DNA from: Pseudofrankia saprophytica
GTDB taxonomy: Bacteria > Actinomycetota > Actinomycetes > Frankiales > Frankiaceae
Length of the DNA stretch: 64,000 nt
Reading direction: 5' to 3'
Assembly (NCBI RefSeq): GCF_000235425.2
Contig: NZ_KI912266.1
Coordinates: forward strand, 7,831,130-7,895,129
Below the pieces are notes generated by a model. The model was not told the origin of the DNA. It worked only from the letters and a program-made list of their open reading frames with translations, and ran no database searches. Positions 3,271 to 4,825 of the stretch are shown one piece after another (the stretch's first letter is position 1; each line of letters opens with the position of its first letter). The translations under genes and the position numbers were made by a program.

Positions 3271-4497
3271 TCATGAGGCGTCGGGGCCCCACAGGTCGGT
3301 GTGGTGGGCTTGGACGAGAGCGTGGATACGGGTGAGGACGTCGTCGGCGGACCACGGGCCGAGGCGGCGTCCGTCGCGCAGGCGCAGGGCCATCTGGCCG
3401 TCGGCGGCTTCCTTGGCGCCGACGACCCCCTGGTAGGGGACCAGGCGAGCCTCCCGGATGCGCGCGCCCAGACTGCCACGTTCCGGGCCGGCGACCTCGG
3501 CGCGCAGCCCCAGGTCGAGGCAGCGTCTGGCCAGGGCCGAGGCGTTCGGCGCCTCGGCCTCGGAGATCGGGAGAATCACCAGCTGGGTGGGGGCGAGCCA
3601 GGCGGGGAACGCCCCGCCGTGCTGCTCGACGAGATGCGCGATCGCCCGTTCCACGCTGCCGATGACGCTGCGGTGGACCATGACCGGCCGGTGCTTGGCA
3701 CCGTCCGCGCCGACGTAGTGCAGGTCGAACCGCTCGGGCTGGTGGAAGTCGACCTGGACGGTGGACAGGGTGGACTCCCTGCCGGCGCTGTCGGTGACCT
3801 GGACGTCGATCTTCGGTCCGTAGAAGGCAGCCTCTCCCTCAGCGGCCTCGTAGCGCAGTCCGACGCGATCCAGGACCTCAGCCAGCAGCGCGGTGGAGCG
3901 CCGCCACAGCTCGGGCGCCGCGACGTACTTGCCGCCTGGGCCCGGGAGGGAGAGCCGGTAGCGGGTCGCAACGATGCCCAACGCCTGGTACGCCCGGCGG
4001 ATCATCTCCAGCGCCGCGCATGCTTCGTCGGCGACCTGTTCCAGGGTGCAGAAGATGTGCGCGTCGTTGAGCTGGATGGCCCGCACGCGGGTCAGGCCGC
4101 CAAGTACGCCCGACAGCTCCGAGCGGTACATGCCGCCCAGCTCGGCGATCCGCAGAGGCAGCTCGCGGTAGCTGTGGGAACTGGAACGGTAGATCACCGC
4201 GTGATGTGGGCACAGACTCGGCCGTAGGACGACCTGCTCACCTCCCAGATCCATGGGCGGGAACATGTCCTCGCTGTAGTGCGACCAGTGCCCGGAAATC
4301 TCGTACAACTCCCGCTTGCCAAGCACCGGTGAGTACACGTGCCGGTAGCCCGCCCGCCGCTCCTGGTCGCGGATGTACTCCTCCAAGGTGTGCCGTACGG
4401 TCGCGCCGTCGGGCAGCCAGTACGGCAGCCCCGCGCCGATCAACGGATCGGTGCCGAACAGGCCCAGCTCACGGCCGAGCTTGCGGTGGTCATGCAT
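3271..4497 (-). CDS. thrS: Threonyl-tRNA synthetase paralogue lacking TGS and editing domains
   Basis: This 408-residue class II synthetase aligns with the catalytic and anticodon-binding part of ThrRS only; ordinary bacterial ThrRS is about 640-690 residues. Visible motifs are SLCPHH (zinc Cys, equivalent to NCPGH), motif 2 MYRSELSGVLGGLTRVRAIQ followed by NDAHIFC (zinc His), and motif 3 MVHRSVIGSVERAIAH. FPAWLAPTQLVILPIS opens the anticodon-binding domain. It should charge tRNA-Thr but cannot edit Ser-tRNA-Thr by itself. Start is the ATG at 4497, with GGAG eight bases upstream. The 5' leader carries a leader peptide and terminator hairpin (separate entries). A second housekeeping ThrRS probably exists elsewhere; such spare copies are known as stress or antibiotic-resistance forms. 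Confidence 0.93.
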   Translation of the reverse strand: MHDHRKLGRELGLFGTDPLIGAGLPYWLPDGATVRHTLEEYIRDQERRAGYRHVYSPVLGKRELYEISGHWSHYSEDMFPPMDLGGEQVVLRPSLCPHHAVIYRSSSHSYRELPLRIAELGGMYRSELSGVLGGLTRVRAIQLNDAHIFCTLEQVADEACAALEMIRRAYQALGIVATRYRLSLPGPGGKYVAAPELWRRSTALLAEVLDRVGLRYEAAEGEAAFYGPKIDVQVTDSAGRESTLSTVQVDFHQPERFDLHYVGADGAKHRPVMVHRSVIGSVERAIAHLVEQHGGAFPAWLAPTQLVILPISEAEAPNASALARRCLDLGLRAEVAGPERGSLGARIREARLVPYQGVVGAKEAADGQMALRLRDGRRLGPWSADDVLTRIHALVQAHHTDLWGPDAS

Positions 4498-4537
4498 GGT
4501 GGTCTCCTCGCGGATCGCGGGCGAGTGACCACAAGCA

Positions 4538-4567
4538 GAAGCCCCGGGGCACTCGCCCCGGGGCTTC
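4538..4567 (-). terminator. Attenuator hairpin in the ThrRS leader
   Basis: On the minus strand, GAAGCCCCGGGGC, loop GAGT, GCCCCGGGGCTTC form a perfect 13-bp stem with a 4-base loop, 40 bases before the ThrRS start. The downstream sequence (TGCTTGTGG) is only mildly T-rich, which is common for actinobacterial terminators. It lies between the Thr-rich leader ORF and the synthetase, the position expected of an attenuator. Confidence 0.8.
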
Positions 4568-4582
4568 GCATTACGACAACTG

Positions 4583-4633
4583 TCAGCGCGCCGGGACACA
4601 CTCCGGCGTCGTCGTCACAGCGGCGCGCTTCAT
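4583..4633 (-). CDS. Threonine leader peptide of ThrRS attenuator
   Basis: A 16-codon minus-strand ORF reads MKRAAVTTTPECVPAR and ends in TGA. It holds three consecutive ACG Thr codons at 4607-4615, just upstream of a gene for threonyl-tRNA synthetase. The RNA just after the Thr codons can fold as CGCCGG/CCGGCG with an eight-base loop, and its 3' arm (CCCGG) can instead pair with CCGGG in the 5' arm of the terminator stem. A ribosome stalled on Thr codons would cover the first arm and favour the antiterminator. The ATG lies eight bases after a likely -10 box, so translation may be leaderless. Confidence 0.75.
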   Translation of the reverse strand: MKRAAVTTTPECVPAR

Positions 4634-4640
4634 GCCGACC

Positions 4641-4668
4641 ACGGTAGCAGAGACAGGGTGGCTGTCCC
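4641..4668 (-). promoter_or_regulatory. Putative promoter of the ThrRS leader
   Basis: On the minus strand there is a GGGACA (-35, 4663-4668), a 16-base spacer and TACCGT (-10, 4641-4646). The predicted transcription start falls on or next to the leader ATG at 4633. The assignment rests on consensus resemblance only. Confidence 0.45.
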
Positions 4669-4825
4669 ACCCGCTTGTTCCGCCGACCCGCCCGTTCGCG
4701 GACCCGGGAAACACCGTCGACGGAACGGTCCCGCGGCGGCGGTGAGCGTTGAGCTGCCACGCCCCGTGTCGGCCATCAGATAGCTCTCGTGTCTGCCTTT
4801 GACGGCATGAATCGCCACCCGTAGC

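Follow-up and report, generated by a model that had tools for sequence, protein, structure and literature searches.

In many soil bacteria a leader with three threonine codons probably turns on a spare gene for threonyl-tRNA synthetase when Thr-tRNA runs short

Introduction

Why should a second gene for threonyl-tRNA synthetase (ThrRS) stand behind a very short reading frame with three consecutive threonine codons, and how could such a leader act on the gene that follows it? The question is raised by a window of 64,000 nt from Pseudofrankia saprophytica (GCF_000235425.2, NZ_KI912266.1 positions 7,831,130-7,895,129), by which we mean the whole stretch of DNA that was analysed; the element lies on its minus strand throughout. 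The original prediction, made from this DNA alone, was a complete leader-peptide attenuator of the classical kind at 4538-4668. Its central part, a 16-codon ORF with three Thr codons ahead of the ThrRS gene, is confirmed on the minus strand, and the predicted span does cover everything from the promoter to the hairpin; the whole element, however, reaches beyond the hairpin (4538) to the thrS start codon, at 4495.

4633-4583, minus strand: leader ORF of 16 codons (peptide MKRAAVTTTPECVPAR, then stop), ATG 4633 to TGA 4583
4615-4607, minus strand: regulatory codons ACG ACG ACG, the three consecutive Thr codons of the leader ORF
4497-3271, minus strand: auxiliary ThrRS gene, 408 aa, with no TGS or editing domain; 13/13 of its Thr codons are ACC

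The start of the ThrRS ORF was placed at 4497 by reading the sequence for Shine-Dalgarno (SD) spacing. The fold of 4668-4500 has a z of -3.7, and 1 of 200 shuffles folded equally well. From the comparison of this leader with its relatives we suggest that it probably turns the spare ThrRS gene on when Thr-tRNA runs short, and that it is a ribosome-mediated attenuator in which a relay of hairpins ends at the SD of thrS. We give this reading a probability of about 0.6. That ribosome-mediated attenuation of one kind or another operates here seems very likely to us, and for the hairpin relay in its full form we would claim slightly better than even odds.

The promoter and the leaderless start

4649-4641, minus strand: extended -10 element, TGC TACCGT, placed for leaderless translation of the leader
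4668-4663, minus strand: possible -35 element, GGGACA, with a 16-nt spacer; weak, by reading of the sequence

The hexamer TACCGT (4646-4641) stands 7 nt ahead of the leader ATG. This spacing is conserved: TANNNT was found 6-7 nt upstream of an in-frame start in 132/132 leaders with a usable start and in 17/528 control windows shifted 20-50 nt further up, with one start per locus. The count comprises 132 of 134 relatives, L111 and L148 having been left out because the script found no start in them, and where a locus offered several possible starts the one with the TANNNT motif was taken. A consensus TGC just before the -10 is also seen across the leaders (T 80%, G 95%, C 77%). The conserved spacing supports the promoter placement for a leaderless start that had been proposed, and the thrL leader of Streptomyces lividans is also described as leaderless (PMC8079986). 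A consensus promoter scan of the P. saprophytica locus found no promoter.

At 75/132 loci a GAAA box of the WblC/WhiB7 type lies 36-30 nt before the -10, mostly at -33/-32; upstream of the P. saprophytica -10 the exact box is absent. Parts of one study describe a WblC site 3 nt upstream of the -35 and list thrS2 as WblC-activated, and by sequence the position of the GAAA box is compatible with that site (PMC7157823).

Conservation and distribution of the leader

Are the Thr codons and the stems kept in orthologous leaders, as the original prediction implied? Judged by sequence both are, and the leader survives this comparison. It is present at 138 of 141 homologous ThrRS loci (that of P. saprophytica and 140 others), the remaining three being cut by contig ends (L007, L091, and L059, where the cut falls inside the leader and only its 3' part is left). 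The automatic parse passed 134 loci; in L061, L079, L095 and L106 it failed on a leader that is present. Exactly three consecutive Thr codons occur in all 134 parsed leaders, each before a ThrRS gene, and a run of cognate codons is what defines the leaders of ribosome-mediated attenuators. Among the best 80 of a larger set of loci (ThrRS 75-87% identical), a leader containing TTTP was seen at 79, and at the remaining one the contig begins within the leader; the sets of loci may contain the same species twice, as only identical cores were removed. Pairing was scored in an alignment of 125 of the 134 leaders, from which six with long spacers between hairpin T and the SD, two identical cores and the diverged L148 were left out. 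Both ACGACGCCGG and CCGGCGCGC are invariant across it.

Could it be the nascent peptide that is recognized? TTTPESVPAR is common to many leaders, and such a peptide might stall the ribosome, with a drug or alone. However, the residues that follow TTTP are variable, the stretch ahead of TTT has no fixed length, and in 6/134 leaders the frame is shifted after the Thr run. Four of these (L073, L123, L130, L146) retain the RNA block CCCGGCGCGC with the Thr codons in frame, so that here it is the RNA rather than the peptide that is kept. Control by an arrest peptide is highly unlikely in our judgement. We give still less credit to a tRNA-binding element of the T-box or ThrRS-operator type, for which the ORF would be incidental. 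For actinobacterial ileS, parts of a survey propose T-box-like elements that control the initiation of translation (PMC1262725), but the constancy of the three in-frame Thr codons (134/134) speaks against such control here, no Rfam family, the T-box included, reached its gathering score in the window, and at 4400-4800 Rfam gave only three sub-threshold sRNA matches and no T-box at E <= 1.

The enzyme itself has a scattered distribution among whole genomes (4/8 in the genus, 9/35 in the order, 61/393 in the class). We built a covariance model from the leader, hairpin T and the SD hairpin and searched it in the 393 class genomes. There were 58 matches of at least 51 bits, one at a contig end and 57 upstream of, and on the same strand as, a ThrRS of the auxiliary type, at a distance of <=73 nt in 54 cases and of 160-322 nt in three. 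The four enzyme-bearing genomes without a strong match are G007 and G020, at contig ends, and G226 and G218, with diverged copies; the G226 match, of 38.9 bits, lies ahead of the ThrRS2 of that genome, and in G218 the leader was identified by hand. Several matches below 45 bits are the opposite strand of true leaders. Of the weaker matches that were fetched (G256, G340, G388, the second place in G248 and one place in G355), only G256 is a true leader, and tblastn found no ThrRS in the 2-3 kb around the other four. Regulation of other genes by this leader was rejected, since the model has no strong match elsewhere.

One genus (L186 = G355, L187 = G256) has a full-length ThrRS, the sole one found, behind a diverged version of the leader; the model missed the leader of G355, which was found by hand. 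None of 68 further housekeeping thrS has a TTTP leader, and a chance short ORF with TTT or TTP stands upstream of four of them (L244, L245, L246, L248). This survey covered 72 loci and 450 nt upstream (146 nt in L208), with L251 and L253 not located and L186 and L187 counted apart.

Hairpin T and the Shine-Dalgarno sequence

4567-4538, minus strand: hairpin T, 13 bp, loop GAGU; terminator-like, no U-tract
4558-4550, minus strand: segment 4, GGGCGAGUG, the apical part of T, which resembles the SD region
4530-4519, minus strand: segment 5, GGUCACUCGCCC, anti-SD arm, able to pair with segment 4 or 6
4511-4501, minus strand: segment 6, GCGAGGAGACC, containing the thrS SD, sequestered by segment 5 in the predicted fold of this sequence

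At which level would the leader act? The hairpin that had been taken for a 13-bp terminator does exist at 4567-4538 and is conserved, with 93.4% of cells paired in the 125-leader alignment, changes on both sides in 8 of the 13 pairs and 0/500 shuffles as good; a control slid by +1 has 30 double-changed cells against the 25 observed, but only 68.8% of its cells are paired. It has no U-tract, however, and is not supported as a classical terminator. Over the 134 loci thymine accounts for 26% of the 9 nt that follow the stem, a run of three T within 12 nt occurs at 1/134, and a scan found no terminator-like site at the hairpin T of P. saprophytica. Compared with ribosome-mediated leader-peptide attenuators, the stem is present and the U-run is not. 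A role of T as an ordinary terminator was rejected for want of a U-tract. An H-type pseudoknot between T and segment 5 was weighed on paper and would be unlikely at the 9/134 loci with a T stem of 6-8 bp.

Segment 5 can pair with segment 4 as well as with the SD region, since the two are alike, and both helices are preserved. Pairing 4:5 (4558-4550 with 4527-4519) is possible in 93.0% of cells, with changes on both sides in 6/9 pairs and 41 double-changed cells; it was reached by 0/500 shuffles and exceeds all slid controls. For 5:6 the values are 87.8% of cells, 7/9 pairs and 0/500 shuffles; the 18 double-changed cells observed are equalled by one slid control and exceeded by another (20), though in both far fewer cells are paired. 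The 0/500 for T, 4:5 and 5:6 refers to the percentage paired and the number of double-changed cells; on weaker measures, the number of pair types in 4:5 was reached by 46/500 shuffles and the number of pairs in 5:6 by 15/500. Double changes on the same branch of the ThrRS tree number 14 for 4:5 (2.9 expected, 11 compensatory), 14 for 5:6 (4.5 expected, 9 compensatory) and 11 for T (1.6 expected, 7 compensatory), the expected counts ignoring branch length. An alignment-free comparison of 4:5 over the 134 loci gave -18.0 kcal/mol with the locus's own downstream region and -16.4 kcal/mol with permuted ones. At the 54 loci with loops other than GAGU the values were -17.5 and -14.6 kcal/mol (s.d. 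0.31, 0/5000), the cognate pairing being stronger than with the median partner at 46 of them, equal at 3 and weaker at 5.

Translational attenuators hold the SD in a hairpin and have an alternative pairing that frees it, and by sequence both appear to be present, as 4:5 and 5:6 share segment 5 and each shows compensatory changes. The strand that would otherwise hide the thrS SD can pair with the loop of T, and this pairing shows compensatory changes; control by the leader therefore probably reaches translation. The lack of a U-tract together with the evidence for 4:5 and 5:6 favours control at translation initiation, with or without an effect of T on read-through. By reading, the diverged L147 and L148 have their SD within a perfect 7-bp helix of another sequence, GGGCUCC...GGAGCCC.

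The leader hairpin and the proposed order of events

4629-4625 with 4589-4585 and 4607-4603 with 4594-4590, minus strand: leader hairpin P, 96.3% of cells paired
4597-4591, minus strand: segment 2, GUCCCGG, proposed partner of segment 3 (4561-4555)

The conserved leader hairpin P consists of AGCGC:GCGCU plus GCCGG:CCGGC. It is almost invariant (the inner stem entirely so, with one double-changed cell in all in the 125-leader alignment) and therefore tells us little by covariation. Reading of the diverged L146-L148 shows its outer stem altered on both sides; in L147 and L148, whose ThrRS are 54-57% identical, it is CACACC/GGUGUG and CACGCC/GGCGUG. The pause-type hairpin of the original prediction, in which ACGACGAC at the Thr codons pairs with GUUGUCGU, was dropped as a conserved part, as it was not seen on reading the aligned linkers of the relatives. 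Pairing of segment 2 with segment 3 (CCGGGGC) is possible in 97.1% of cells and shows no covariation. Among three masks tried, only the Thr-stall mask gave 2:3 in the minimum-energy folds of the P. saprophytica sequence at 80-90 nt; it was absent with no mask and with the stop-codon mask.

Comparison of the sequences itself shows the leader with its Thr codons, the promoter spacing for a leaderless start, hairpin T, the pairings 4:5 and 5:6 and the codon division described below. From these we infer pairing 2:3 and the following order of events, which would act on translation or at both levels in response to starvation. The leaderless ORF would be translated as the transcript is made. Where ACG is read slowly the ribosome would stop on an ACG codon and cover the 5' half of the leader hairpin, leaving segment 2 free to pair with segment 3, and formation of T would be delayed. 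The loop region of the delayed T (segment 4) would then take segment 5, and the SD would be free; T may also lower read-through. A cell starved for ACG decoding could still translate thrS, because the gene has almost no ACG or ACA codons. With a ribosome footprint of 15 nt, a ribosome halted at ACG1 or ACG2 covers the P stem and leaves segment 2 available, one at ACG3 touches a single nucleotide, and one at the UGA masks segment 2. The full 4:5 helix shares 4 nt with 2:3; its 5-bp core GAGUG:CACUC does not overlap. For the P. saprophytica sequence, the equilibrium energy of T with 5:6 is -45.3 kcal/mol, against -14.4 kcal/mol for 2:3 with the 4:5 core, and once the transcript reaches 92 nt the minimum-energy fold has T in place of 2:3 even with the Thr-stall mask applied, so that the on state must be a kinetic one.

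Would transcription attenuation alone be sufficient, with T as an intrinsic terminator, 2:3 as the antiterminator and the downstream pairings incidental, as originally predicted? T is strongly conserved with compensatory changes, a 1:2, 2:3, 3:4 logic fits the masked folds, and the auxiliary TrpRS of Streptomyces coelicolor is said to be controlled by classical transcription attenuation. Yet T has no U-tract, and 4:5 and 5:6 covary downstream of the point at which transcription would have ended; the authors of the S. lividans study, in the passages concerned, likewise saw no uridine-rich sequence (PMC8079986). We regard this explanation as unlikely. What the comparison upholds among the parts of classical attenuation is the set of mutually exclusive RNA pairings, and what it leaves unsupported is the terminator and the pause stem. 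The original prediction missed the SD-sequestering hairpin with its competing pairing, as it did the division of ACG and ACC codons to which we now turn.

Division of threonine codons between leader and gene

Is there a meaning in the choice of Thr codon? In the 134 leaders ACG accounts for 395 of 402 Thr codons. The 141 ThrRS genes have 1479 Thr codons, of which 95.9% are ACC, 3.3% ACU, 0.5% ACG and 0.3% ACA; ACG and ACA together occur 12 times, all in 11 genes, and the other 130 have none. In the ThrRS gene of P. saprophytica ACG makes up 0/13 Thr codons, and in the other ORFs of its window 31.5%. The ORFs flanking 80 loci use 32.5% ACG and 3.6% ACA, and none of 158 is free of both.

It might be argued that high expression or base composition, and not the leader, keeps ACG out of the ThrRS genes. 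The 30 leaderless housekeeping thrS also prefer ACC, with 20% ACG (3-44% per gene) and as little as 1/29 Thr codons in one of them, though none is free of ACG and ACA. Against this, the same ThrRS genes show normal use of GCG, CCG, TCG and GTG, and ACG is kept at 37% in thrC and 36% in thrB of the class, where no gene of 43 is free of ACG and ACA (30 best loci per search of 60 genomes; 8 thrC and 9 thrB with GC3 <0.85 were dropped). Moreover, the two housekeeping thrS that have the leader (G256, G355) contain ACC in 24/24 and 23/23 cases and ACG or ACA in 0/47, while their neighbours use 26% and 31% ACG, 1 of 30 neighbouring ORFs being likewise without ACG and ACA. As the auxiliary ThrRS genes are related and p-values would overstate the case, these full-length genes, as an independent case in another gene, are the better argument for the division. 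An explanation by expression or composition only is improbable in our view. General Thr starvation as the cause of the purge is unsupported, as the purge is seen in 0/22 thrC and 0/21 thrB. The Thr content of the auxiliary ThrRS is 2.6%, against 3.9% in the matching part of the housekeeping enzyme.

Somewhat tentatively, at a little under even odds, we propose a self-insulated switch partitioned by codon: the leader would read ACG only, the gene is purged of ACG and ACA, and the SD mimic in the loop of T would relay the record of the stall. The leader ACG would be read by tRNA-Thr(CGU/UGU) and the controlled gene would need only tRNA-Thr(GGU), so that the synthetase could be made exactly when ACG is unreadable. 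In a stronger form of this proposal, specificity for the ACG-reading isoacceptor may lie in the stress that induces the gene or in the tRNA preference of the enzyme itself. With the tRNA-Thr genes of the genome (GGU 2, CGU 2, UGU 1) and ACC used about twice as often as ACG, selective-charging theory in its simple form gives no clear reason to expect ACG to be the sensitive codon. Outside the window, G000:C1:4297780-4300378 (L290) of the same genome has 23 tRNA matches within 2.6 kb, separate from the usual dispersed tRNA genes; second genes for tRNA-Thr GGU and CGU were found near it, and judging by these the cluster seems to hold spare isoacceptors.

The auxiliary enzyme

What kind of enzyme is controlled in this way? 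It matches TIGR00418 above cut-off (442 bits), and Pfam finds only the class II core (PF00587) and the anticodon-binding domain (PF03129), in keeping with the editing-less second ThrRS that had been predicted. A further, full-length ThrRS is encoded elsewhere in the genome. Aligned with the E. coli enzyme, Tyr462-Gly463 is kept and Leu489 is replaced by Gln. Gly463 is retained in 141/141 homologues, and position 489 is Gln in 139, Lys in 1 and Leu in 1; the housekeeping ThrRS of P. saprophytica has Met there, by reading of the alignment. By sequence, then, the enzyme shows a change at the fourth-subsite Leu489 (E. coli numbering), as borrelidin-resistant ThrRS do. Mutations of H309 and L489 in E. 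coli ThrRS are described, in the parts of the study concerned, as raising the Ki of borrelidin 300- to 1000-fold (PMC4389257). With this effect of L489 mutations, the Gln at 489 makes it plausible that the auxiliary ThrRS is an inhibitor-resistant reserve enzyme. By analogy with the second ThrRS of Anabaena (PMC4787780, in part), it may instead have a zinc-sparing or stress role. The ThrRS of L106 and L111 have long repetitive N-terminal extensions, Asp/Arg/His-rich and His/Pro-rich.

Relation to known systems

The original prediction knew of no such arrangement for a second ThrRS. A thrL leader, MKRVRPFLETTPGFVPAR before the stop, ahead of a gene for threonine-tRNA ligase had been reported in S. 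lividans TK24 in 2021, so that the attenuator itself is not new (PMC8079986, in part). The two share a leaderless leader and one hairpin without a uridine-rich sequence; thrL has two consecutive Thr codons, as against three in all 134 parsed leaders here (PMC8079986). The S. lividans passages leave termination open, and SD sequestration, conservation and a codon split go unmentioned in them (PMC8079986). The P. saprophytica leader is of the thrL type (leaderless, MKR...TTP...VPAR and stop, hairpin without a U-tract), the peptides having been compared by eye only.

How does it compare with leaders for other amino acids? Vecchione and Sello reportedly found the indolmycin-resistant auxiliary TrpRS1 of S. 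coelicolor to be under ribosome-mediated attenuation; this is said to be a second, inhibitor-resistant enzyme. In translational attenuators such as ermC a relay of alternative hairpins ends at a sequestered SD. Our leader would resemble ermC in this relay, the signal in ermC being a drug-bound ribosome and here, as we propose, slow decoding of Thr codons. Attenuators of Streptomyces trpS and leuS have also been described, in parts of a 2005 survey of actinobacterial amino acid genes, the same parts of which report no conserved RNA structures upstream of threonine operons (PMC1262725). Like TrpRS1, these have the synthetase gene preceded by a leader that contains its cognate codons. They differ in the amino acid, and in the present leader the competing pairing reaches the SD; for Trp, which has one codon, no codon split is possible. 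In the polycysteine leaderless short ORFs of mycobacteria (Canestrari et al., PMC9031893, in part) contiguous cognate codons act on downstream genes, as here; the amino acid is cysteine, and the likeness noted is one of layout.

Compared with what selective-charging theory says of codon choice in attenuators (PMC1183508, in part), the split between leader and gene is here nearly complete, and it is seen in leader-controlled thrS only, with no sign of it in thrB or thrC. ObaO and the ThrRS of the borrelidin producer are likewise second or resistant ThrRS with changes in the inhibitor site, as far as the parts of those studies go (PMC11252418, PMC4389257); the enzymes behind our leader differ in keeping Gly463 (141/141) and in having Gln at 489 (139/141). 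A literature search over titles and the beginnings of abstracts, with subscription papers mostly outside its scope, gave, among the papers listed, none that dealt with how widely this leader is conserved, with a relay to the SD or with a codon split. The attenuator class is known; the proposed relay by an SD mimic, the codon split and the Gln at Leu489 are new.

What would this mean for these bacteria? The tRNA isoacceptor sensed by the leader and the one needed by the induced gene could both be read from sequence alone, and selective-charging theory would become testable in actinobacteria by synonymous changes only. The actinobacteria would have a widespread and possibly inhibitor-resistant ThrRS reserve, found in 61/393 class genomes, which would be relevant to natural ThrRS inhibitors such as borrelidin.
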